Source: an uncultured Eubacteriales bacterium (GTDB taxonomy: Bacteria > Bacillota > Clostridia > Oscillospirales > Acutalibacteraceae). From it: a stretch of DNA of 61,319 bases. The notes under the pieces are model-generated. The model had not been told where the DNA came from. It made no database searches and was given only the letters and a program-made list of their open reading frames with translations. The stretch covers positions 1-61,319 of the forward strand of contig ONID01000015.1 of the NCBI GenBank assembly GCA_900317765.1, read 5' to 3'. Positions within the stretch are counted from its first letter, which is position 1. Each line of letters starts with the position of its first letter. The translations under genes and the position numbers were made by a program. Of this stretch, positions 31,827 to 53,272 are shown in pieces.

Positions 31827-33293
31827 TTATTGTTCCGTTACGAGTTCGGTAAGTTCATCCGGTTGCGCCTGATCATAGGAAGGATCAAGTATTTTTTCAA
31901 AATACCCGCGAAGATCCGAGAGATTATCCACATCCAGCTTTTTGAGCAGGTTGCGGCTCTGTGCGCGGACGGTGTTGCGCGAGAGCATCATCTTGTCGGG
32001 GAGCTGTTCCATGGTGTAGCCGCCAAGTACGACAAGATCAAGGATATATTTTTCACGGTCGCTGAGCTGCATTTCGTCCGACTTTTGGATGATAAGCTCC
32101 CTGAGCAGCCGGTGATGTTCCAGACTCTCCTGGGTAAGGCCGTATTTTTTCAGCAGCGAGAAGACGGCAGGTCCGCCGATCACCAGCAATGCGGCTGTTG
32201 CCGCGATGATCAGGTCTTTATTTCTGATTTGCAGATAATAGTTGAATATATCGGCAGCAAGCCGGGCGGCAATCACGCATGCATATCCGAATATCGCATA
32301 GAACATGGGATGCTGTCTGTCCATGGCAAAATTGATAATAAAGATATAGACAAACACGGCAAAGCACGCCTGTCCGATAAAGCTGCACACCAGGAAGACC
32401 GCTTCTTCCCTGCGTGAGAAGTAGGGAAGCTGGAGCATGATCGCAGTGATCGCCATAAAGCATACGCTGTAGACATAGAGCGGCGTGACCTTGTGGAACT
32501 TTACAAAAAGCGCTATGATCAAAGCCGCGGCGACATAGGAAATATAGGTGTAAAGTCCGTAATTGCGGAAAATGGGGACATACATTTCATAACCGAGGGT
32601 GTTGATTCTTCCGAGGCAGAGGTAATAAATGCCCGCCAGCACAAAGAGCAGCCAATACGCTCCGGGGATATTGCGCATCAGAATCTTGTGAGAGGCTTCT
32701 GAATAGCTGATGATGGGCATCTGTTCCTTGGAGAATCCGGAGGAACGCACCGTCAACAGGGCGAGTGCTCCCGAGAGAACAGCGAGCGCGTAGATGCCGC
32801 GGGTCATGTCCATATAGGTATAAATCACGTGGTCGGCGTATCTCACGAGTCCTCCGATGGCAATACCGCCTGCCACGGCGAAGAGTCTGTGGCTTACCCT
32901 GATGCTCAGCAGCCGCGAGAAGAAGGCAAGCACTCCGAACGCAGCGCAGATGCCTGTAATCACCGAGTATACGCTGAATGAATCGGCGTTGGTGAACGCG
33001 AGGGCGATACCGCTTTCCGCCATCAGCACCGCGGGAACAATCCTGAAATATCTGTGTCCGAGCAGTCCCTCAAAATCCAGGTGGAACATAAGCATAAGCA
33101 TGACGCCGAGCGTCACGGCAAGAGACGCTCCGAAAATAATGTTTGTGACCTCATAGAGCGACGATGTGCCGTATATCTCGAGACTTTTTTCGCAGATGAA
33201 TTTAACAGTGAGATACCAGCCGATAAACCCGCCGATGCATACCGCGCCGCCCATGGAGCTTTTTGTAATGTTTCCGAATAATTTGTTGATCAC
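31827..33293 (-). CDS. Membrane-embedded LuxR-type transcriptional regulator
   Basis: 488 residues. Roughly 10-12 hydrophobic helices fill residues 15-395 and a LuxR helix-turn-helix occupies about 415-472 (LSDREKYILDLVVLGGYTME ... LSRNTVRAQSRNLLKKLDV). Proteins with an MFS-like sensor and C-terminal LuxR domain are known mainly from gut Actinobacteria (Eggerthellaceae) and some Firmicutes; the DNA-binding part would act at the membrane. The start is GTG 33293 with GGAGG about 10 nt before it. A perfect palindrome in its promoter region suggests autoregulation. No clear structural target lies next to it; the ligand is unknown. Confidence 0.85.
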   Translation of the reverse strand: MINKLFGNITKSSMGGAVCIGGFIGWYLTVKFICEKSLEIYGTSSLYEVTNIIFGASLAVTLGVMLMLMFHLDFEGLLGHRYFRIVPAVLMAESGIALAFTNADSFSVYSVITGICAAFGVLAFFSRLLSIRVSHRLFAVAGGIAIGGLVRYADHVIYTYMDMTRGIYALAVLSGALALLTVRSSGFSKEQMPIISYSEASHKILMRNIPGAYWLLFVLAGIYYLCLGRINTLGYEMYVPIFRNYGLYTYISYVAAALIIALFVKFHKVTPLYVYSVCFMAITAIMLQLPYFSRREEAVFLVCSFIGQACFAVFVYIFIINFAMDRQHPMFYAIFGYACVIAARLAADIFNYYLQIRNKDLIIAATAALLVIGGPAVFSLLKKYGLTQESLEHHRLLRELIIQKSDEMQLSDREKYILDLVVLGGYTMEQLPDKMMLSRNTVRAQSRNLLKKLDVDNLSDLRGYFEKILDPSYDQAQPDELTELVTEQ

Positions 33294-33510: not shown

Positions 33511-33873
33511 ATGTTTATCAAGTTGCTTCTCGCTCTAATATCATACAAAGGACTGAAAAAAATGGACGAAAAATTCAACAAAAACGTGAACGCACAGGGA
33601 GAAGGTCAGGGCGCCAAGAAGTCAGGCATCGCCTGGAAAATTGTTCTTATGATTATTCTTGCGGTTCTGGTGCTTTCACCGATCGACGCTCTTCCGGATG
33701 TCATACCTGTTGTGGGCTGGGTTGATGACGTTGCCTATGTTGCAGGTATTCTTGGCACAGTGGTTGGTATGCTCAAGGGCAAGAGGACACAGGAGATTCC
33801 CGGCGCATCAGGCGCACAGGGATATATCCCCCCGATGTACAATGAAGTAAAGACCAACAGAAAGAGTAAGTAA
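33511..33873 (+). CDS. DUF1232 (YkvA-like) membrane protein
   Basis: 120 residues. The DUF1232 signature LSPIDALPDVIPVVGWVDDVAYVAG (in two parts) spans the second hydrophobic stretch at about residues 57-80. A short hydrophobic N-terminus and a charged C-terminus flank it. The function of the family is unknown. ATG 33511 has AAGGAG 14 nt before; an in-frame ATG at 33562 has AAAGGA 9 nt before and may be the real start, which would drop the first 17 residues. Confidence 0.8.
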   Translation: MFIKLLLALISYKGLKKMDEKFNKNVNAQGEGQGAKKSGIAWKIVLMIILAVLVLSPIDALPDVIPVVGWVDDVAYVAGILGTVVGMLKGKRTQEIPGASGAQGYIPPMYNEVKTNRKSK

Positions 33874-33939
33874 TCAGTAGCTTGCAGCTGACTGTACCGC
33901 GCAGCCTTTGTGTGGGAAGTCCAAAAATATGTTCATTCT

Positions 33940-33978
33940 ATGCGGTGTTCTTCACTTTTGATGAATGCCGCATTTTTA
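33940..33978 (+). terminator. Terminator after the DUF1232 gene
   Basis: ATGCGG (33940-33945) pairs with CCGCAT (33968-33973), followed by TTTTA. Confidence 0.65.
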
Positions 33979-34019
33979 TGTCAAGTGCGAATATCGTAGT
34001 TATAAAGGAGAAGGTATAC

Positions 34020-34763
34020 ATGCCAAACGACATGACAGGAATAATCAAAAAAATAAAAAAAGGCGCAGCCATTTTGCTTGCGGCATCCGTACTGCTGTCA
34101 TTGGCGGTTTCGTGCGACACGGGGAGCAAAACCGATGTTCCGGACGCAACCAAAATTCTCAGCAGTCAGGCGGAAGAATCACTGAAGGCGTTTCTTGCGA
34201 GGTTTGTCAAAGGTTATCCGGTAGCTGTCAACGGCAAATGGGAGTATGACTGCACAGCTCCTTCCGAGAACGGCATCAACGTCCTGGCCTGTATTGTGAC
34301 ACCGGCGTCCTGCGTCGACTGGACGCTTTACTCGGATATTTCCGAGGAGGATTGTTTTATTGAAAAAACAGATGATCCCAGGGGATGGGCGAATGATACG
34401 CATGCCTATTACAGGTATGACGCCGCAACCGTGGAATTGATCGCCCGTGAGATCTTTAACCTGAGCAAGGACGACATCAGCAAGCTTACGGAACGCGGTG
34501 AAAATGAATTCGTGTTTTATAAGGATAACGGCAGCTATTTTACCCTTTGTGAAGATATATACGATTCCTATTACGATGTAACGCTTCTGTCGGTCGGTTA
34601 TGACGGCGAGAGGTACTATGTGGAGTTTGACGCGGATAAACTTCAGAAGACAGATAATGATAACGAATTCATCCATATTACCGGCAAGTGCCGTGCGGAA
34701 TTGGCACCTAAGACGGTCGACGGCAGGGAATACTGGTCCCTATATCGTTTTAAAGCTCTTTGA
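34020..34763 (+). CDS. Lipoprotein of unknown function
   Basis: 247 residues. Signal peptide with lipobox SLAVS-C, so it should be tethered on the outside. The mature domain has aromatic- and Asp-rich patches (GKWEYDCTAPSENGINVLAC, YRYDAATVELIAREIFN, FYKDNGSYFTLCEDIYDS). I do not recognise the family. AAGGAG (34004-34010) supports ATG 34020. It may be the first gene before the PP2C phosphatase, although the 178-nt gap and a weak promoter at 34862-34889 argue for separate units. Confidence 0.65.
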   Translation: MPNDMTGIIKKIKKGAAILLAASVLLSLAVSCDTGSKTDVPDATKILSSQAEESLKAFLARFVKGYPVAVNGKWEYDCTAPSENGINVLACIVTPASCVDWTLYSDISEEDCFIEKTDDPRGWANDTHAYYRYDAATVELIAREIFNLSKDDISKLTERGENEFVFYKDNGSYFTLCEDIYDSYYDVTLLSVGYDGERYYVEFDADKLQKTDNDNEFIHITGKCRAELAPKTVDGREYWSLYRFKAL

Positions 34764-34941: not shown

Positions 34942-36276
34942 TTGAGCGAGGCCAACAAGATCCTGATCCGAGCGGCTGCCGAGTCCAACGTGGGCAACGC
35001 AAGGGGCAATAATGAAGATAATGTGTATTTCAACGGCGATTACATAACCCCCCGGAATATCGGCAGACCTTTTGCCATAAAGACCGGAGATTACACTGAC
35101 GTCAATATTTTTGCGGTTTTTGACGGAATGGGGCGAAACAATACAGGCTCCTTCGCTTCGCTTGTTGCCGCGACCAAGCTGGATAATCTTGCCGACCGCA
35201 TTTCATTCGACCCTGACGCAACGCCGGATGATGCCGTTCTTGAATACATGCAGGAAACCAACGAGCTGATACGCGACCAGCGCCGTGAAACCGGCGGTGT
35301 GCGCACCGCGTCCACCATGGCTTTGCTCATTATCGAAAACGGAAACGCGCATGTCTATAATGTGGGAGACAGCCGTGTGTATCTGTACCGCGACAAACAG
35401 CTCGTCAAACTGACCCGCGATCATGTGGCCGTGGAGGGACAAAAGAGTGTCGCTCTCACAGAGGAAGGCATCCGCCACGGCAGAATCACCAAATTTCTCG
35501 GCATGAACAGCCGTGAAGGAAAGATGGAACCCTACCGCGCAAAGCCCTTCAAAGTAAAGAAGGGGGACAAATTCCTTGTGTGCAGCGACGGCGTGACCGA
35601 CCAGTTAGATGAGGACGAGATAACGGTTTGTCTCGGCAAGCGCAAGGATCCCTTCGGACATACCAATGAACTGATGGCGCTTTCCATGAGCGATGACAGC
35701 GACGACAACGTTTCCGCGATTGTGGTGGAAGCCATTGAACCCGGCATCCACATCACGCAGAATATGATCATGGTGATGGTGGGATGTCTTATCATGATGT
35801 TCGGCGTCGGGGTGGGTTTTGTGTTCGGCTGGCTCGTGGGCAGCACATCGTCTGAATATGAGGGACTGAACGACTACGACAGCGGCTACTACAATATGGA
35901 AGTCATCAAGGGAGTCAGCGGCTCCGATCTTTCGTCCGATGTGGCGGAGGTCAGCAATGTTTCTTCTGCCATACCCACCACGGTTCCCAAGAAGGATGAT
36001 ACCAGCTCAGAGGAGATTCAGTACACCGTTTACGCCCTGACCCTTCGTCAGAGCAACGATATTACCCTCAAGCGAGGCAAGAGCGTGAAGCTCTCGGTGG
36101 AAATCAACCCGGACAACGTTCCGCAGAGCTATATCAAATGGAGTTCTGACAACGAGAAGGTCGCCACTGTTGATGAAAACGGCAAGGTGGTCGCCAAAAA
36201 GAAGGGACAGGCTACCATCACCGCGCGTGCCGGCAATAGCAATATGACGGCAACCTGTCTGATTCGTGTGCCGTAA
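34942..36276 (+). CDS. Membrane-anchored PP2C family Ser/Thr phosphatase with BIG_2 domain
   Basis: 444 residues. A PP2C domain (about 5-265) shows the metal-binding acidic motifs: NNEDNVYF, AVFDGMGRNNTG, YNVGDSRVYLYRD, VCSDGVTDQL and SDDNVSAIV. A transmembrane helix (about 275-298, MIMVMVGCLIMMFGVGVGFV) is followed by a Ser/Thr-rich linker and a bacterial Ig-like group 2 domain (about 355-444, KSVKLSVEINPDNVP, VAKKKGQATITARAG) that would be outside the membrane. PP2C phosphatases reverse Ser/Thr kinase action. TTG 34942 follows GAGGTGAG at good distance. The giant 43-residue-repeat protein is next, 79 nt away, and is its most likely partner. Confidence 0.88.
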   Translation: MSEANKILIRAAAESNVGNARGNNEDNVYFNGDYITPRNIGRPFAIKTGDYTDVNIFAVFDGMGRNNTGSFASLVAATKLDNLADRISFDPDATPDDAVLEYMQETNELIRDQRRETGGVRTASTMALLIIENGNAHVYNVGDSRVYLYRDKQLVKLTRDHVAVEGQKSVALTEEGIRHGRITKFLGMNSREGKMEPYRAKPFKVKKGDKFLVCSDGVTDQLDEDEITVCLGKRKDPFGHTNELMALSMSDDSDDNVSAIVVEAIEPGIHITQNMIMVMVGCLIMMFGVGVGFVFGWLVGSTSSEYEGLNDYDSGYYNMEVIKGVSGSDLSSDVAEVSNVSSAIPTTVPKKDDTSSEEIQYTVYALTLRQSNDITLKRGKSVKLSVEINPDNVPQSYIKWSSDNEKVATVDENGKVVAKKKGQATITARAGNSNMTATCLIRVP

Positions 36277-36346: not shown

Positions 36347-36355
36347 ATAGGAAGG

Positions 36356-39300
36356 ATGGTCGTAAAGTTGGCTTTTTTCAAGAGATTTAAAAATCAGAAT
36401 ACGAAAAAACGCTACGAAAATCCTGCTGTCAATCAAGCAATTGATGAAATAAACAAGCGCAAGGAAACAGAGAACGCTGCCCCTGTCCGCGACAGTAAGT
36501 CTTCTTCCGGCAGGGCGGCGGAGAAGCCTTCGGACAAAAAAGACGGAGGGTTTGCGCCTGTCCTTGCATTTGATCCGAGCGGAGCCGGTGCGGAGAATCT
36601 CGTGTATAAACCCACGCCGATCAGTCCGAGAGCCTCACGCTCAGAGCAGTTTGACAAGGAAATGGAAAATTTAGCGGGTATCTACGGTGTGGACAAGACT
36701 GAGTCGGAAAGCTACGCCGAAAGTCCTGCACCCATCATTCCCTCTATGGCTGCCGCATCGGAGCCCGTACAGGCTCCCGTCCGCAGACTGAACGGCAGCG
36801 GCGAGTCGCTGGCCTTCATGGACCTGAGCGACCGCACAGATCTGCAGCCCGAGGAGATCGAAGAGGCAAGCGAGATCTTCGGCATCAAATATCCCGCCGG
36901 ATTCCGCACCGATCTTGTCAATTACGCGGGCAGAGAGATTGACCTGAGCGATTTCAGCCTTGTCGAAAATCTGCGTTGGAAACATATTGAGAATGCATCC
37001 GACATCAGCGGTATTGTTTTTCCCTCTACCATAGATACCGATTCCTTCAATTTTTACGACAGAAATATCAGCGGATGCGATTTCAGCTCGGTTTACGGGC
37101 TGCGCTGGAGACATATCCAGAATGCGCGCGATATTGCCGCCGTCAAATACCCCGCAACATTTGACATAGACAATGCCGTCTTTGCCGCAAGGAATATATC
37201 GGGCAGCGACTTCAGCATGATAGGAAGCCTGCGTTGGGATCATATCATGAGTGCCTCGGACATCAGAGGCATCAAATACCCTGCTTCCTTTAACACATCG
37301 GAGGCGAAGTACTACGGCAGAGACATATCCGGAAGCGATTTTTCCCTTTGCAAGGGACTTAAGTGGAGCGACATCAGCCTCGCTTCCGATCTGAGCGGAA
37401 TCATTTATCCCGACAATTTCGATTTCAGCGAATGTGACTTCACTGATATTGACATCTCCGGCAGTGATTTTTCCAAGGCGGAGAGCCTCAGATGGAGCCA
37501 GATTGCCAATGCGTACGATATTACCGGCATAAAGTATCCCTCCTGCTTTGCCCCTGACAAGGCCGATTTTGCCGGCAAGGATATTTCAGGGAGCAATTTC
37601 AGCCGCGTGGCAAGTCTTCGCTTTGCGCATATCAAGCCGGCGAAGAATATCAGAAAGATCGTATATCCGCCGCAGTTTGACATAGACGACGCAGATTTCA
37701 CCGACCGTGATATCGACCGTTCTGACTTTTCGCTTCTTCCCGGTTTCAACTGGGAGAGCGTGAAACTCGCATTCAGCAGGGATAATGTGATTTATCCCGC
37801 CGGATTTGTCGAGCCTGTACCCTCTGACGAGGATGTGGAAGGCGCGATGCTGATCTATCTGCTCAGGCTCTACAGCCGTGTGCAGCAGGATACATTCAGC
37901 ACGGAGGCATTTTACAGCGACATCACGGCTCTTTATCCGGGACTCACTGATGCTGACGCGGCGGCACTTATCGAGCGATCGACTGCCAAATGGGAGAGGA
38001 AAAACGGAGCACGTCTGATACGATCTGACGCCCGGTGCGCTCACACAGGCGACAAGCTCTTCATGACCAAGCTTGGTTTCAAGCTGCTTTATCCCGTCTG
38101 CGGCGGAGAAAATGCCGCGCAGATTCTGCGCGAGTCATTCGGAGACATGATCCGCACGCGTGAACAGGAAAAATTCGAGCAGAGACTTTACGATCTGCAA
38201 TGCGGCAAATACCTTTCGGCAGCCGAGCTGACAGAGATCGGCTTCATGGCGGGCAAACTTCCGCAGAAAGCGGAGCTTCATGTCGCTGTAGACAAGCCCA
38301 AGAGGGTGCTGCCTGTTCTCACTGAACTGGAAAGCATGGAGGAAAACGAACGCGGCAGCCGCGTTCGCGCCGTCCCGATCACCGAACCGCTTGTTCCGCC
38401 GGAGGTATCTCCCCTTACGGAAATCGCCGACAGGGTCAAGGTGAAGGTGGTTCAGTCGGAGGCTCCTATTCTGGCACCAGTCAAGCCGATAGACCCCGCG
38501 ACGCTGCTGACTGGACAGAAAACCGACGAGCAGCCGCAGTCCGATGAGCAGCCTGAGAACATAACGGCTGCGGAAGAAGCCGATGCCGTTGTGCAGGCGG
38601 AGGAACCCGTGCCCGAAGAGACGGAAGCACCCGTTCCGGAATCAGTTCCCGAACCGGAGAAAGCAGAGGATGAACCGCCCGTTGAATCCTTTGAGCCTGT
38701 CAGCATAGAAGAATATACCGACAACAAACCGCAGGAGCCGCAACAGAGGGGGTACAGCTTCGGCGAACATGTTGCGCCTATAGATATTGACATCAGTGTT
38801 CCGCCTTCGATTCCCGTTCAGCCGGAAACCGAGCCGGAATATATTCCCATCGCACAGACCGATCCATTTTACGGGTACACCCCCAAGCAGCCCGAACCGG
38901 AGCTTCCCGAACCTGAGGAACCTTCTCCGGTGGGAGAAGCGATCGGTGTTCGTGACGACGCATTTGAGCCGGTTCAGCTGCACATCGATAAGCTGCGCGA
39001 TGCCAACGCCGACGACGCGGGCGAAAAGCTGCGCCGCAAGAAGCTCGACGATGAGGAAAAAGCCATTCGCACCGGCGTGATGGGAATGCTGCTCTACATC
39101 AATCAGAGCATTACCGACTCCGATCTCACCAATTCGGAGCTTTTCAACGAATTTATGCGCATATACCCCGGCGCACAGCCCAAGGAAACGGCTGCAATGG
39201 CGCAGTTCGCTGCCAACACGCTCAGCGGAATCAACGCAAAGACACGCGCCAAACTCTTTATGTTTGCGACAAAGGCCGATCCGACTGTCAAGCGCAGACT

Positions 39301-42082
39301 GATGGATTTTGCTCTCGAACAGTACAGCTACAAACTGCGGGTGGCAGAGGATGAAGCTTCATTCCGCGACTTTTTGCAGACCTTATGCACCACACTCTTT
39401 GAGGAATCGGGAGATTATGAGTATTCCTCCTATTTGCTCTCAAAGGGCATATTAAAGGACCCGCCCGAGCAGCGGGAGGCACATTATAAACAGATCCCCT
39501 TTGAAAAAGGTGTCGGTAAAGCCAATCTCTACGCCAATGCGCGTTATCCCTATTACCGCACACTCGAACAGGTCGGATTCTCGCACTTTACCTTTGAGTC
39601 CATCCGCGACAGCCTTAAAATTGAGCTGAGCGACAGTCATTACTACGAGGAACTGGAAGACCTGGTCTACCGCAAGTGTGAGCCTACGCTGATGAAGTTC
39701 GTGGTCATCGAGACCACCATGGGTCTGCTCTATCTCGAACAAAGGACGCTGGCAGACTGGGGCGTGGACGAGGAATTTGTCTGGCGCGCAGCGGAAAACA
39801 ACATGAAAAACACCCGGTTCCGCGAGAGATATTCCTTCAGCACAGAGGATTGCAGTCCCTTCCGTTACATTCAGCACGATCTTGCGAGCTTCGTGCTTGC
39901 TCTGCCGGAAAAATTAGCGGAGCTTGCCGACGGGCGCGATCTGATTCTCACCGCGCCTTGCCGTGAGATTGTTTACATCGACTACTACGATCTCTCATCC
40001 ATCCGGGAAATGCTCAGCTTCAGCGCCCATTACGACTGCACCATACAGCTCGGCGGCGATCAGTATGAGCACCCCTTCACCCCCGACGTGTTTATCTATC
40101 ACGCCGACGACAGTTCTCTTGAACGCGTCAACGATGAGACATACATCCTGCTGGGCGATTCCGTCGCAAGGCGCGAAGTGCTGAAGTCGGTGCTTCCGCA
40201 GGATATGAAGGTGGACACGGACGCCATTGTAAAGCCTAAGAATACAGACGAGATTGAGATTATCGGAGATGACACCTACAATCTTCAGGCTGCGGCCTTC
40301 ACCATTCTGAGGCTGTATTCCGAGATGAACGGAGACACCGATTATACCCTTCCGCAGAACGCGGTCATGGCGGTGTTTGACGACCTATTCATCTCCTTTG
40401 ACGCCGTCTATCCGCCGGTTCGCGGCAGAGAACAGCCTGATCCCATGCAGCACATCGACGATTGCGCACGGATGGTTGTCCGCGGCGGAAAAACCGTCTG
40501 CTGGCTGCTTGTGCAGGCGATACAGCAGCTCTGCGGCGACATCAATTATGAAACTCCCGCGAGCGCAGGCATCCGACAGACCACACTGCGCGAGATTTAC
40601 GGCGACAACGCCAACGCCGTCTGGCTCAACTGTGCCACGGCGACCGAATTCCGCAGACGTTACGAGGCTGTGCGGCGCTATCACGAGATTCCCGTGGCGA
40701 ACCAGCACCTCACCATCCTTGACGCGAAGGTGGAGGTGGCTATGCATGCGCTGGTCATGATATTCCACCAGTTCGGACAGCGTTATGCCCTCGGACAGGT
40801 GCGCCGACATCTTTACAAGATCATACCCGACATCAAGTTCTGCTATGAGATCAATCAGAGCGCGTGGCTTCCCTCTCCGGGCGATGACATTGACGTGGAC
40901 GTGCAGTCCATCGGCATGATATTCCGCGGATTTGACAACGCGACGCAGGAAAACATTCTCACAGGTCTTGCCAATGCCATCGGCGACCGCGATCTTGCGG
41001 AAGGCGGCTGGGGACTGCTTTACTTCATCAAGTTTGTCAAGTACGCCTATCTTGACCCCGCCGAGATGGTGGAGAGATACTTCATCTCCCGCAGCAGGCT
41101 GATTCCCTCGCAGAATATCCTCAAGCAGCTCTACTACAAGGATCTCAACAACGAATTCATCAAGCACATGCGCAAATCGGTCAAGCAGGTGCTCTCCGAA
41201 TACGGCGACAGCTTTGAGGTGATTCGCAACACGCCTGTCAGAGGCGGAGAGGATGAAAACAATACTCCGGTGGAGAACTTTGAGAACGTGCTGAATTTCG
41301 CCCGTGAAATAGAGGAGAAAATGAGCGCTCCCCCCGAAGGTCCTGTTGAAGGCGAAATGATCAACCTGCAGGGCAACCGCCCCATGGCGACCACCAAGCC
41401 GGACATTCAGCTGCGGCAGGTGGAAAACGGCTTCCTGGAAAAGCGTCTGAATTTCGTGCTGGAACCTGTTGACGCCAAAATGGCTGATCAGTTGGTGGAC
41501 GCCGCGCATTTCGTTACTAAGCTCTTCCACGTGCCGGAGATCGAGTTCCGGGCCAACAACGACATCGAGTGTGAGCTGCATTACGGAATCATCCGCAGCA
41601 AGAATCAGGTGATTGCACTTCGTTCGCTGGCGTGGACGGTGGCGCAGCTGATGTACGAATCCGGGCGTGAACTGCGCGACGTGACGGAACAGGACGTCTA
41701 CCGTGCCAACGACATCGTGGAACAGTGCGACAGGAACAACTACAAAAAATCCGGTGCGTTCCCGACGCTCTGTTCAATGCCTGTGGACGAAGGCATGTAC
41801 ATTCCCGCCTATCAGGAGTATATCTTCTTTGCGCAGGAACTGATGCCAGAGGTAAAGCTGTCGAGTCTGTTCTCGCTGCAGCAGGAGCTTGCCGATATAG
41901 CCCCGATGATGAAGATCGTGTACGACATACTCAAGAGTGAACGGCGCGACGGTCCGGTGCAACCGGGCACTGTGCTTGCTGACGCGCTTTGCGCGTGGAG
42001 CGCATATTGCTTTGCCGCCGTGGATTCGTTTGAAGTGGTGGCAGGTCCTTCTGCCTACAGTTTTGCACAGATCAAGAGATAA
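36356..42082 (+). CDS. Giant protein with exact 43-residue repeats
   Basis: 1908 residues. Residues 166-466 hold seven full 43-residue repeats and a partial eighth, consensus (W)xHIxxAxDIxGIxYPxxF with a later DISGSDFSxxxxLR. A Pro/Glu-rich linker (about 700-880) leads into a large helical region (about 900-1908) I cannot assign; two similar segments (TAFYSDITALYPGL-like at about 520 and ELFNEFMRIYPGAQ at about 930) suggest a duplicated small domain. No signal peptide or transmembrane helix, so it is probably cytoplasmic. The gene follows a membrane PP2C phosphatase by 79 nt. ATG 36356 directly abuts AGGAAGG; TTG 36368, 12 nt after that site, may be the true start. Confidence 0.75.
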   Translation: MVVKLAFFKRFKNQNTKKRYENPAVNQAIDEINKRKETENAAPVRDSKSSSGRAAEKPSDKKDGGFAPVLAFDPSGAGAENLVYKPTPISPRASRSEQFDKEMENLAGIYGVDKTESESYAESPAPIIPSMAAASEPVQAPVRRLNGSGESLAFMDLSDRTDLQPEEIEEASEIFGIKYPAGFRTDLVNYAGREIDLSDFSLVENLRWKHIENASDISGIVFPSTIDTDSFNFYDRNISGCDFSSVYGLRWRHIQNARDIAAVKYPATFDIDNAVFAARNISGSDFSMIGSLRWDHIMSASDIRGIKYPASFNTSEAKYYGRDISGSDFSLCKGLKWSDISLASDLSGIIYPDNFDFSECDFTDIDISGSDFSKAESLRWSQIANAYDITGIKYPSCFAPDKADFAGKDISGSNFSRVASLRFAHIKPAKNIRKIVYPPQFDIDDADFTDRDIDRSDFSLLPGFNWESVKLAFSRDNVIYPAGFVEPVPSDEDVEGAMLIYLLRLYSRVQQDTFSTEAFYSDITALYPGLTDADAAALIERSTAKWERKNGARLIRSDARCAHTGDKLFMTKLGFKLLYPVCGGENAAQILRESFGDMIRTREQEKFEQRLYDLQCGKYLSAAELTEIGFMAGKLPQKAELHVAVDKPKRVLPVLTELESMEENERGSRVRAVPITEPLVPPEVSPLTEIADRVKVKVVQSEAPILAPVKPIDPATLLTGQKTDEQPQSDEQPENITAAEEADAVVQAEEPVPEETEAPVPESVPEPEKAEDEPPVESFEPVSIEEYTDNKPQEPQQRGYSFGEHVAPIDIDISVPPSIPVQPETEPEYIPIAQTDPFYGYTPKQPEPELPEPEEPSPVGEAIGVRDDAFEPVQLHIDKLRDANADDAGEKLRRKKLDDEEKAIRTGVMGMLLYINQSITDSDLTNSELFNEFMRIYPGAQPKETAAMAQFAANTLSGINAKTRAKLFMFATKADPTVKRRLMDFALEQYSYKLRVAEDEASFRDFLQTLCTTLFEESGDYEYSSYLLSKGILKDPPEQREAHYKQIPFEKGVGKANLYANARYPYYRTLEQVGFSHFTFESIRDSLKIELSDSHYYEELEDLVYRKCEPTLMKFVVIETTMGLLYLEQRTLADWGVDEEFVWRAAENNMKNTRFRERYSFSTEDCSPFRYIQHDLASFVLALPEKLAELADGRDLILTAPCREIVYIDYYDLSSIREMLSFSAHYDCTIQLGGDQYEHPFTPDVFIYHADDSSLERVNDETYILLGDSVARREVLKSVLPQDMKVDTDAIVKPKNTDEIEIIGDDTYNLQAAAFTILRLYSEMNGDTDYTLPQNAVMAVFDDLFISFDAVYPPVRGREQPDPMQHIDDCARMVVRGGKTVCWLLVQAIQQLCGDINYETPASAGIRQTTLREIYGDNANAVWLNCATATEFRRRYEAVRRYHEIPVANQHLTILDAKVEVAMHALVMIFHQFGQRYALGQVRRHLYKIIPDIKFCYEINQSAWLPSPGDDIDVDVQSIGMIFRGFDNATQENILTGLANAIGDRDLAEGGWGLLYFIKFVKYAYLDPAEMVERYFISRSRLIPSQNILKQLYYKDLNNEFIKHMRKSVKQVLSEYGDSFEVIRNTPVRGGEDENNTPVENFENVLNFAREIEEKMSAPPEGPVEGEMINLQGNRPMATTKPDIQLRQVENGFLEKRLNFVLEPVDAKMADQLVDAAHFVTKLFHVPEIEFRANNDIECELHYGIIRSKNQVIALRSLAWTVAQLMYESGRELRDVTEQDVYRANDIVEQCDRNNYKKSGAFPTLCSMPVDEGMYIPAYQEYIFFAQELMPEVKLSSLFSLQQELADIAPMMKIVYDILKSERRDGPVQPGTVLADALCAWSAYCFAAVDSFEVVAGPSAYSFAQIKR
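36851..37753 (+). repeat. Seven 129-bp coding repeats (43 residues each)
   Basis: Seven consecutive units of exactly 129 nt starting at residue 166 of the giant protein, with no insertion or deletion; a partial eighth extends to about 37816. Units are well diverged at DNA level but keep the protein consensus HI..A.DI.GI.YP..F and DISGSDFS. Confidence 0.9.
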
Positions 42083-42089
42083 ATTTTTG

Positions 42090-42137
42090 TTCCCTTTTCC
42101 GGAGAAAACCTTCGGAAAAGGGAATTTATTTTTATTT
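42090..42137 (+). terminator. Terminator after the giant gene
   Basis: TTCCCTTTTCCG (42090-42101) pairs perfectly with CGGAAAAGGGAA (42113-42124), followed by TTTATTTTTATTTT. Confidence 0.9.
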
Positions 42138-51478: not shown

Positions 51479-51541
51479 CAATTTCCGGCATTTTCGAAGT
51501 TTTACAATTACCTAATGTTAGAAATTAAAGGAGAGATTTTC

Positions 51542-53272
51542 ATGGAATTCAAAGGCCTGTGTCTTGGCTGCATGAATAACAAGGGCGATGCAATGGAATG
51601 CCCTAAATGCGGCTATGTAGAGGGTACGCCTCAGGTATTGCCATATCTTGAACCCGGTACATTGCTCAAAGAAAGATATATCGTCGGCAAGCATCTCAGC
51701 GCAAACGGCGAAGGCGTCACCTACATCGGGTTTGACGTGACAACCAACAAAAAGGTGACGGTCAGGGAATATCTGCCCAAAACGCTCTGTTCAAGAATCA
51801 AAGACGATGACAACATTATCATAGCTTCCGGCAACAAGTTAGTCTATCAGGATTACCTTCAGGACTTTATGGAGATAGGCAGAGCGCTTGCAAAGCTCTC
51901 GAGTCTTCCTTCCATCGTGCCTGTCATTGACATGTTTGAAGCCAACAAGACAGCCTATGTCGTGTATGAATTTATCGACGGAAAACCCCTTGATGAAATC
52001 ATCAAGCGTGCCCGCCGTTTCACATGGGAAGAAGCAAGACCGCTTTTCCTGCCGCTGATTTCAACGGTCAATTCCGCGCACTCCATCGGACTGGTTCATT
52101 TCGGCATTTCCCCCGAGAACATCATCATGACCCGCAGCGGCACTTTGAAGCTGCAGGGATTCGGAAGCCCTGACGCGCATTTGGCTGAGACGGAGCTGAC
52201 TGCCGAATTTTACGAGGGCTTCAGCGCCATCGAACAGTATTCCCTCGAGGGCAAAAAGGGCAAATGGACCGACGTCTATGCCATGTGTGCCGTCATATTC
52301 TATGCGCTGACCGGCAAGAGACCGCCCGACGCGGTTTCGCGTTCCTATGAGCCGCGGCTCAATATGCCGGCGGATGTCGCGCAGAACATTCCCACCCACG
52401 TTGTCACCGCTCTCGCAGGCGGTCTTCAGGTCAACATTGAATCGCGCACGCATTCCATGGAAGAGCTGAAAAATCAGTTTACCAATCCCGTACCGCGCAA
52501 GCCCGAGCATAAGCCTGTTCCGGCAGCACCTGCGGCAGAGCCTTCCGGGTACGGTGACAGATATGTAGATGAACCTTCCTATAAGGACTCGCCGGCTCCG
52601 GCTGCGTCTGCCCAGATGAACAGGAACATTCCCCGAGGCTATGAACCGGAGGATGATGAGCCGGAGATCTCGCCGTATAAGTACGGAATCATTTCGGGAC
52701 TGATAGGCTTTGTGGTTCTCGGTGTCATTGCCCTGATCTGTCTGAACCTCATTGTCATTCCGATGATGAACAAGAACAAAGAGCAGGAAGGCGAGGATGT
52801 TTCGTCCGCTTATGTGTCGTCGGCGGAAGACCCGACCGATTCCGAGCCGAAGGTGCTCTACAGGGTGCCTAACCTCGTCAATAAAAAGTGGAGCAGCGTG
52901 GACGGCAATGAGAAGTACAGCAACTTCTATATCCGCCTCAAGGAAGAAGTCTATGACGAAAACTACGAAGAGGGCAGGATCATTTCCCAGACCGTAAAGG
53001 CAGGTTCAACCGTACCGCAGAATACGCCTATCGGCGTCGTGGTCAGCAAGGGCTCCAAGATGCGCACCGTGCCGAATATCATCGGCAAGACCGTTTCCGA
53101 AGCATCCAAGGAACTGGAAAGCGCAGGTCTCGCGCTCGGTGATCAGGCTGAGGAATACAGCGATGACGTGGAAAGCGGAAAGATTATCCGTCTCAACGGC
53201 ATTGAACCGGGCAAGAAGATTCAGGCAGGCAGCATGATCAATGTAGTGGTCAGCCTTGGACCTGAGGATTGA
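51542..53272 (+). CDS. PASTA-domain protein pseudokinase with N-terminal zinc ribbon
   Basis: 576 residues. Zinc ribbon C7-x2-C10...C20-x2-C23; a protein-kinase-like domain (about 35-330); a transmembrane helix (about 380-408); and two PASTA domains (about 440-576) outside. The kinase fold is recognisable (GISPENIIM, EQY at 231-233, DVYAMCAV) but the catalytic residues are lost: the VAIK Lys is Arg75 (KVTVREYLP), the HRD Asp is Gly188 (VHFGIS), and the DFG Asp is Gly206 (LQGFGSP). PASTA domains bind peptidoglycan fragments. So it probably senses wall state and acts as a scaffold or binds ATP without catalysis. AAGGAG (51528-51533) supports ATG 51542. Confidence 0.88.
   Translation: MEFKGLCLGCMNNKGDAMECPKCGYVEGTPQVLPYLEPGTLLKERYIVGKHLSANGEGVTYIGFDVTTNKKVTVREYLPKTLCSRIKDDDNIIIASGNKLVYQDYLQDFMEIGRALAKLSSLPSIVPVIDMFEANKTAYVVYEFIDGKPLDEIIKRARRFTWEEARPLFLPLISTVNSAHSIGLVHFGISPENIIMTRSGTLKLQGFGSPDAHLAETELTAEFYEGFSAIEQYSLEGKKGKWTDVYAMCAVIFYALTGKRPPDAVSRSYEPRLNMPADVAQNIPTHVVTALAGGLQVNIESRTHSMEELKNQFTNPVPRKPEHKPVPAAPAAEPSGYGDRYVDEPSYKDSPAPAASAQMNRNIPRGYEPEDDEPEISPYKYGIISGLIGFVVLGVIALICLNLIVIPMMNKNKEQEGEDVSSAYVSSAEDPTDSEPKVLYRVPNLVNKKWSSVDGNEKYSNFYIRLKEEVYDENYEEGRIISQTVKAGSTVPQNTPIGVVVSKGSKMRTVPNIIGKTVSEASKELESAGLALGDQAEEYSDDVESGKIIRLNGIEPGKKIQAGSMINVVVSLGPED

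Follow-up and report, generated by a model that had tools for sequence, protein, structure and literature searches.

Pentapeptide repeat proteins (PF00805), which form the Rfr beta-helix, are the described proteins closest to the repeat array reported here, and the available text of PMC8145042 defines a pentapeptide repeat protein by at least eight contiguous consensus pentapeptides. According to the accessible part of PMC13123833, the Brevundimonas Knotted Solenoid is another solenoid outside described families, and its nearest unknotted relatives are pentapeptide repeat proteins. Among larger systems, the portion of PMC7159879 available to us lists pentapeptide repeats in VMAP ternary systems and PP2C phosphatases in GAP1-N2 systems. 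PP2C phosphatases of the Stp1 type belong to phosphatase/kinase pairs.

Here, we analyzed a 61,319-nucleotide stretch of DNA from an uncultured gut bacterium (hereafter the window), in which an array of 43-residue units forms part of a giant protein whose gene adjoins that of a PP2C phosphatase. The array resembles pentapeptide repeat proteins, as presented in the available text of PMC8145042, in having a small residue, D/N and a large hydrophobic residue at five-residue spacing in part of its unit, in predicted bridges five residues apart and in sub-threshold profile matches. It differs from them in its unit length (43 residues vs. 5), in runs of at most four relaxed pentads, in a probable second turn with LRWEHI and GIKYP motifs and in a short predicted helix per unit. 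We class the array as a new variant of pentapeptide-like solenoid, partly of the pentapeptide type and by definition not a member of that group. Its likeness to the Knotted Solenoid, which is dimeric, triangular and from other bacteria, is one of description only (PMC13123833, accessible part). Beyond the array seen earlier, the present analysis adds the phosphatase pairing and further domains of the giant protein.

The open reading frame that encodes the array (36356-42082, forward strand) comprises 1908 codons. Over residues 141-480, identity at a lag of 43 residues reached 0.43, compared with 0.03-0.09 at 14 other lags from 35 to 49. Eight units follow each other head-to-tail over residues 151-494, with the consensus DISGSDFSLVxGLRWEHIxNAxDIxGIKYPATFDIDNADFTGR across 22 proteins, and column 30 is a proline in 176 of 176 units. 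The outer two units are partly diverged: the DISGSDFS half of unit 1 reads SLAFMDLS, and unit 8 is without the second half. The LRW motif occupies columns 13-15, where 54 inner units from nine proteins carry a large hydrophobic residue in 100% (column 13) and 98% (column 15) of cases. The unit matches itself best between columns 1-8 and 34-41 (p 0.002), a pentapeptide-like offset of ten residues. The original prediction had described a 43-residue repeat array of seven 129-nt units at 36851-37753 (exactly 7 x 129 nt), without indels, in a 1908-residue protein. The repeat is confirmed by the lag analysis, and seven was a fair count in the earlier phase, the present phase giving eight with the outer two diverged; the absence of indels is borne out by all 22 aligned full-length proteins. 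The length of 1908 holds for the reading frame counted from its ATG, but the protein itself probably begins four codons later at a TTG (Table 1), a start favored by the conserved N-terminus (M/L-A-F/I-F-K/R) and by a GGAAGG at 36350, which touches the ATG.

Table 1 Features of the phosphatase and giant protein genes in the window
Feature	Position (nt)	Strand	Evidence or remark
Partner gene: PP2C phosphatase carrying one membrane helix and a C-terminal Big_2 Ig-like domain	34942..36276	+	Pfam, hydropathy, adjacency, co-occurrence
PP2C domain of partner	34984..35730	+	Pfam PP2C_2, 46.3 bits vs. cut-off 24
Predicted membrane helix of partner	35767..35823	+	Hydropathy peak 2.52, residues 276-294
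Big_2 Ig-like domain of partner	36055..36258	+	Pfam; putatively extracellular
Giant protein gene	36368..42082	+	Probable start TTG 36368 (1904 aa); open reading frame opens at ATG 36356 (1908 aa)
Array of eight 43-residue units, 129 nt each	36806..37837	+	Lag analysis, unit table, equal length in 22/22 aligned proteins, solenoid prediction
Helical module 1	37823..38251	+	Directly behind array; helices in model, profile match to module 2
Linker, low conservation	38285..39007	+	Conservation profile; dN/dS of 0.17-0.32 across five pairs
Helical module 2, homologous to module 1	39029..39472	+	Profile match; helices in the better part of a poor C-terminal model
C-terminal domain	41381..42079	+	Also present in a BRCT-like protein from another family of the order, whose gene lies in one row with vWA and AAA genes
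Strong terminator-like hairpin with 16 pairs and a T-rich tail	42089..42125	+	After giant gene; hairpin scan

The giant gene was found in all 17 genomes of the same genus, in three of them in pieces. Matches to the giant protein occurred in 20 of 98 genomes, its own and two outside the genus included (the G066 match covers the C-terminal domain only), and in 15 of 398 family genomes from six genera; one of these 15 matches (G405, E 2.6e-4 over 69 residues) is doubtful and was judged unconvincing. A scan of species genomes yielded 24 loci in genomes titled as uncultured Ruminococcus, Clostridiales, Clostridia, Bacillota and Oscillospiraceae, several bearing goat or water-deer gut names. With profiles, the array matched only its own genome among 295 genomes of the order, and the C-terminal profile A3 likewise matched only its own among 291 of the class. 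The two-unit profile matched two of 378 phylum genomes, its own and one (E 0.0018) that was judged a chance match, with two stops inside. A shorter C-terminal profile, A4, matched four of 295 order genomes; a match in G599 (E 0.005) was judged unconvincing. Profile A1 was built from 16 of the 22 aligned proteins, profile A6 from 20 of 69 non-redundant two-unit segments, and the unit statistics from nine proteins.

We then compared the array across 22 full-length proteins (the window's own and 21 homologues, a set that omits G001, G004 and G016, where contig ends or a stop interrupt the protein). The array segment measures 355 residues in all 22, each with 8 x 43, and no unit has been gained or lost among them. 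Meanwhile, identity to the window protein falls as low as 41% overall (16 of the 22 proteins) and to 44% over the array and the module behind it. In 455 of 576 comparisons across nine proteins, the best match of a unit was the unit at the same position; the array is therefore old, without turnover, and was complete before these genera separated. Array dN/dS was 0.030 and 0.026 in the two closest of five pairs, with dS already above 1, and 0.011 in a third, with dS saturated; the two remaining pairs were not computable. Between L001 and L002, the array had a dN/dS of 0.03 and the C-terminal part one of 0.026. These ratios indicate that the array is under strong purifying selection. In G016 (L052 6501-12416), an in-frame stop divides the gene into two open reading frames.

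We utilized AlphaFold2 with the 22-sequence alignment to predict the structure of the array and the module behind it. The model is a regular solenoid with a mean pLDDT of 92.7 and a pTM of 0.82, values to be read with the reservation that AlphaFold2 confidence on repeats may run too high. By eye, bridges lie at columns 1, 6, 23 and 28 in units 2-8 (only 6 and 28 in unit 1), a short helix lies near columns 15-18 in all eight units, and a three-residue helix spans columns 35-37 in six of the eight. These positions suggest that a unit of 43 residues is probably folded into two turns, about 22 and 21 residues long. The sequence gave no significant support for a two-turn unit, either from hydrophobicity at lag 21 (p 0.37) or from comparison of two halves with one gap (p 0.10). 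Two homologous half-units were rejected as a candidate, the best DIxG match at lag 22 being 5.7 against a null mean of 5.0, with the same two hydrophobic patterns. The earlier proposal of a stacked solenoid under strong constraint is supported by the predicted fold, by the absence of indels in 22 proteins and by the array dN/dS of 0.03.

Foldseek returned neither a PDB nor a viral match at E≤0.001 for a query that also carried the helical module, so that a fold may have been missed. Its top rows were leucine-rich repeat (LRR) proteins, and the sole PDB sequence match of the whole protein (E 4.7) was a plant receptor kinase, which we take to be LRR-bearing. Since every turn of the model also shows bridges together with a short helix, the array might form an LRR-like horseshoe with helices on one side. 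We consider this highly improbable: the best Foldseek row (E 0.0067, TM 0.16, rmsd 24.9) is no real match, Pfam scans detected no LRR family in the protein (E≤1) or in 16 members (E≤10), and bridges five residues apart differ from the LRR strand pattern.

No scan of Pfam, NCBIfam, PADLOC, PDB or PHROGs assigned the unit to a described family, in agreement with the expectation that it belongs to none that is named. In whole-protein Pfam scans, none of 16 members had a match at E≤0.001; PF00805 was the family matched by most of them (nine of 16, best E 0.0074), and single members matched two unrelated families (E 0.0013 and 0.0017). NCBIfam and PADLOC gave no relevant match for the array protein, and PHROGs gave one, to a family of unknown function (E 0.0084). 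Against PDB sequences the best E was 0.17, and the longer profile and the single protein matched unrelated chains only. The two-unit profile had two PDB matches (E 0.33 and 6.2), one of which is presumably a pentapeptide protein. The other is named as such in the available text of PMC8145042. In the literature as far as its text was accessible, we found no published description of this 43-residue repeat or of the gene pair.

These matches raise the question of whether the array is an ordinary pentapeptide repeat protein that has diverged so far that the standard model misses it. Three isolated arrays matched PF00805 with E 0.00065, 0.094 and 2.9, whereas none of seven column-permuted control arrays did. 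Both weak plasmid matches, and all 20 of the phage matches listed (the best 20 of 39, all from phages of one host), carry pentapeptide annotations; both PDB matches of the two-unit profile lean the same way. However, no PF00805 score passed the cut-off of 20.2 bits, the best (19.7 bits) coming from an isolated array, and for two of the seven permuted controls the match to an unrelated family was stronger than that of any real array to PF00805, in one case above cut-off. The control matches are a warning on such Pfam scores, as are the two unrelated families matched by single members. In all 22 proteins the longest contiguous run is one full consensus pentapeptide, or two to four under relaxed rules, against the eight required, and the best 50 of 229 Foldseek rows hold no pentapeptide structure. 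A diverged ordinary member is thus an unlikely reading, and we retain that of a partly pentapeptide-type variant. The original prediction had remarked that the unit recalls pentapeptide repeats but is longer and includes an aromatic step; the longer unit and the aromatic step stand, and the likeness proves closer than the passing one it described, as the sub-threshold matches lean that way.

Behind the array, the two helical modules are homologous over 64 columns (profile match, probability 84, E 7e-6) and flank a variable linker. No described family matched them in the family scans. A suspected TerB-like resemblance gained no support, as no such family appeared in Pfam scans of 10 segments or in the PDB profile search. 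In BFVD, two unnamed viral proteins gave alignments of 123 columns (probability 0.94, but E 0.08) and 126 columns (probability 0.90, but E 0.28). For the middle part of the giant protein we considered a DUF5688-like resemblance; PF18941 was absent from four genomes, but from 14 controls too, which makes this search weakly informative. The model of the C-terminal half is poor (pLDDT 55) and was left out of the fold search, and an enzymatic domain may be hidden there. Hydropathy reached no membrane-level peak in the five giant proteins examined (highest 1.76).

Over 189 columns, the C-terminal domain matches a protein of 1213 residues found in another family of the order (probability 98, E 3e-14). 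A BRCT-like stretch of this protein falls below cut-off, and the gene row of the protein in G066 (L046 2311-12257) comprises genes for a WYL regulator, the BRCT-like protein, a vWA protein (DUF2201), a BspA-LRR/BRCT protein and an AAA protein, the last scoring 25.4 bits with the bpMoxR model (cut-off 27). In G457, a second genome of that genus, a similar protein was seen by eye as two open reading frames behind a P-loop gene. The giant protein might accordingly belong to a MoxR/vWA-type conflict or stress system with the array as its target-recognition part, and the occurrence of pentapeptide repeats and PP2C in the VMAP and GAP1-N2 systems (PMC7159879, available portion) would fit such a role. 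The window locus differs from the ternary systems of that source in that no MoxR or vWA gene was found among 24 window proteins scanned, and PADLOC gave no match in P0001-P0005. Conflict genes are patchy and fast-changing, whereas this gene is present in 17 of 17 same-genus genomes and strongly conserved by selection. We regard a conflict role as quite improbable.

Next, we examined the gene upstream of the giant gene. In 23 of 24 loci it lies directly in front of the giant gene, no more than 266 nt away; the remaining locus starts inside the giant gene, cut by a contig end. PP2C and Big_2 were both found in all eight partner homologues scanned, PP2C above cut-off in each, as in the window protein (Table 1), and membrane-helix hydropathy peaked at 1.89-2.63 in the eight homologues examined. 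A search of 220 family genomes with the phosphatase gave 23 with a match at E≤1e-20. In eight genomes the match extended past query residue 300, and all eight have the giant protein; the G028 match ends at residue 315, yet its protein has Big_2. The other matches at E≤1e-20 lay within residues 5-299 at 25-36% identity, and their 15 genomes are absent from the giant-protein matches. The phosphatase and giant genes thus form a two-gene cassette. A hairpin scan of the region, which found 17 sites against 10.9 expected, scored no terminator-like hairpin between the two genes, and their products are probably made from one operon.

The partner resembles Stp1-type PP2C of phosphatase/kinase pairs over residues 15-263 (120 bits, below that model's cut-off of 230). 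The cassette departs from such pairs in the membrane helix and Ig-like domain of the phosphatase, in having a giant protein as the neighbor and in the lack of an adjacent kinase gene in the window. Further PP2C and kinase genes occur in the genome, such as a PP2C gene beside a kinase match on contig C40.

Other genes surround the cassette in the window. A membrane protein with a LuxR-type HTH (31827-33293, reverse strand) is divergent from it, with relatives upstream in three of four g77 loci, and a DUF1232 protein and a lipoprotein-like gene (33511-34763, forward strand) lie between this regulator and the cassette; the lipoprotein-like gene was found by similarity in part of the genus only. 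Outside the genus, the immediate neighbors of the window were not recurrent, except the LuxR-type gene in three loci. Further downstream, a PASTA kinase-like protein (51515-53272, forward strand; Pkinase and PASTA) has HFG in place of HRD and GFG in place of DFG, and is therefore probably a pseudokinase. A relative in G006, about 2.8 kb behind the giant gene, keeps HFG and has QDF at the second place.

The adjoining membrane phosphatase gene suggests that the giant protein is a signalling scaffold. The explanation we favor as a whole, with confidence that is evenly balanced, is a docking scaffold of fixed reach that contains a stacked solenoid and is governed by the membrane phosphatase. The array would be a regular beta-solenoid of fixed length at the front of a giant cytosolic protein, which also holds the two homologous helical modules and the C-terminal domain. 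One turn of each unit would be close to a pentapeptide-repeat coil (DIDNA DFTGR DISGS DFSLV), and the other would carry the short helix (LRWEHI). The solenoid could then act as a docking ruler that positions partner proteins, while the phosphatase, anchored in the membrane with its Ig-like domain outward, may control how the giant protein or its docked partners are phosphorylated, in response to the cell surface.

The unit number has stayed constant while the array and the module behind it drifted to 44% identity, which suggests that the cell requires a certain length or geometry. More tentatively, and with somewhat less confidence than in the docking scaffold, we propose that the array may represent a new class of beta-solenoid, with a two-turn 43-residue unit held at exactly eight copies by selection, and that it may be the ruler in a trans-envelope phosphatase-scaffold signalling device standard in one gut genus. 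For structural biologists, the array offers a clean natural solenoid. A PP2C with a putatively outward-facing domain, tied to a constant partner, would offer an uncommon entry into the phosphorylation signalling of uncultured gut bacteria.
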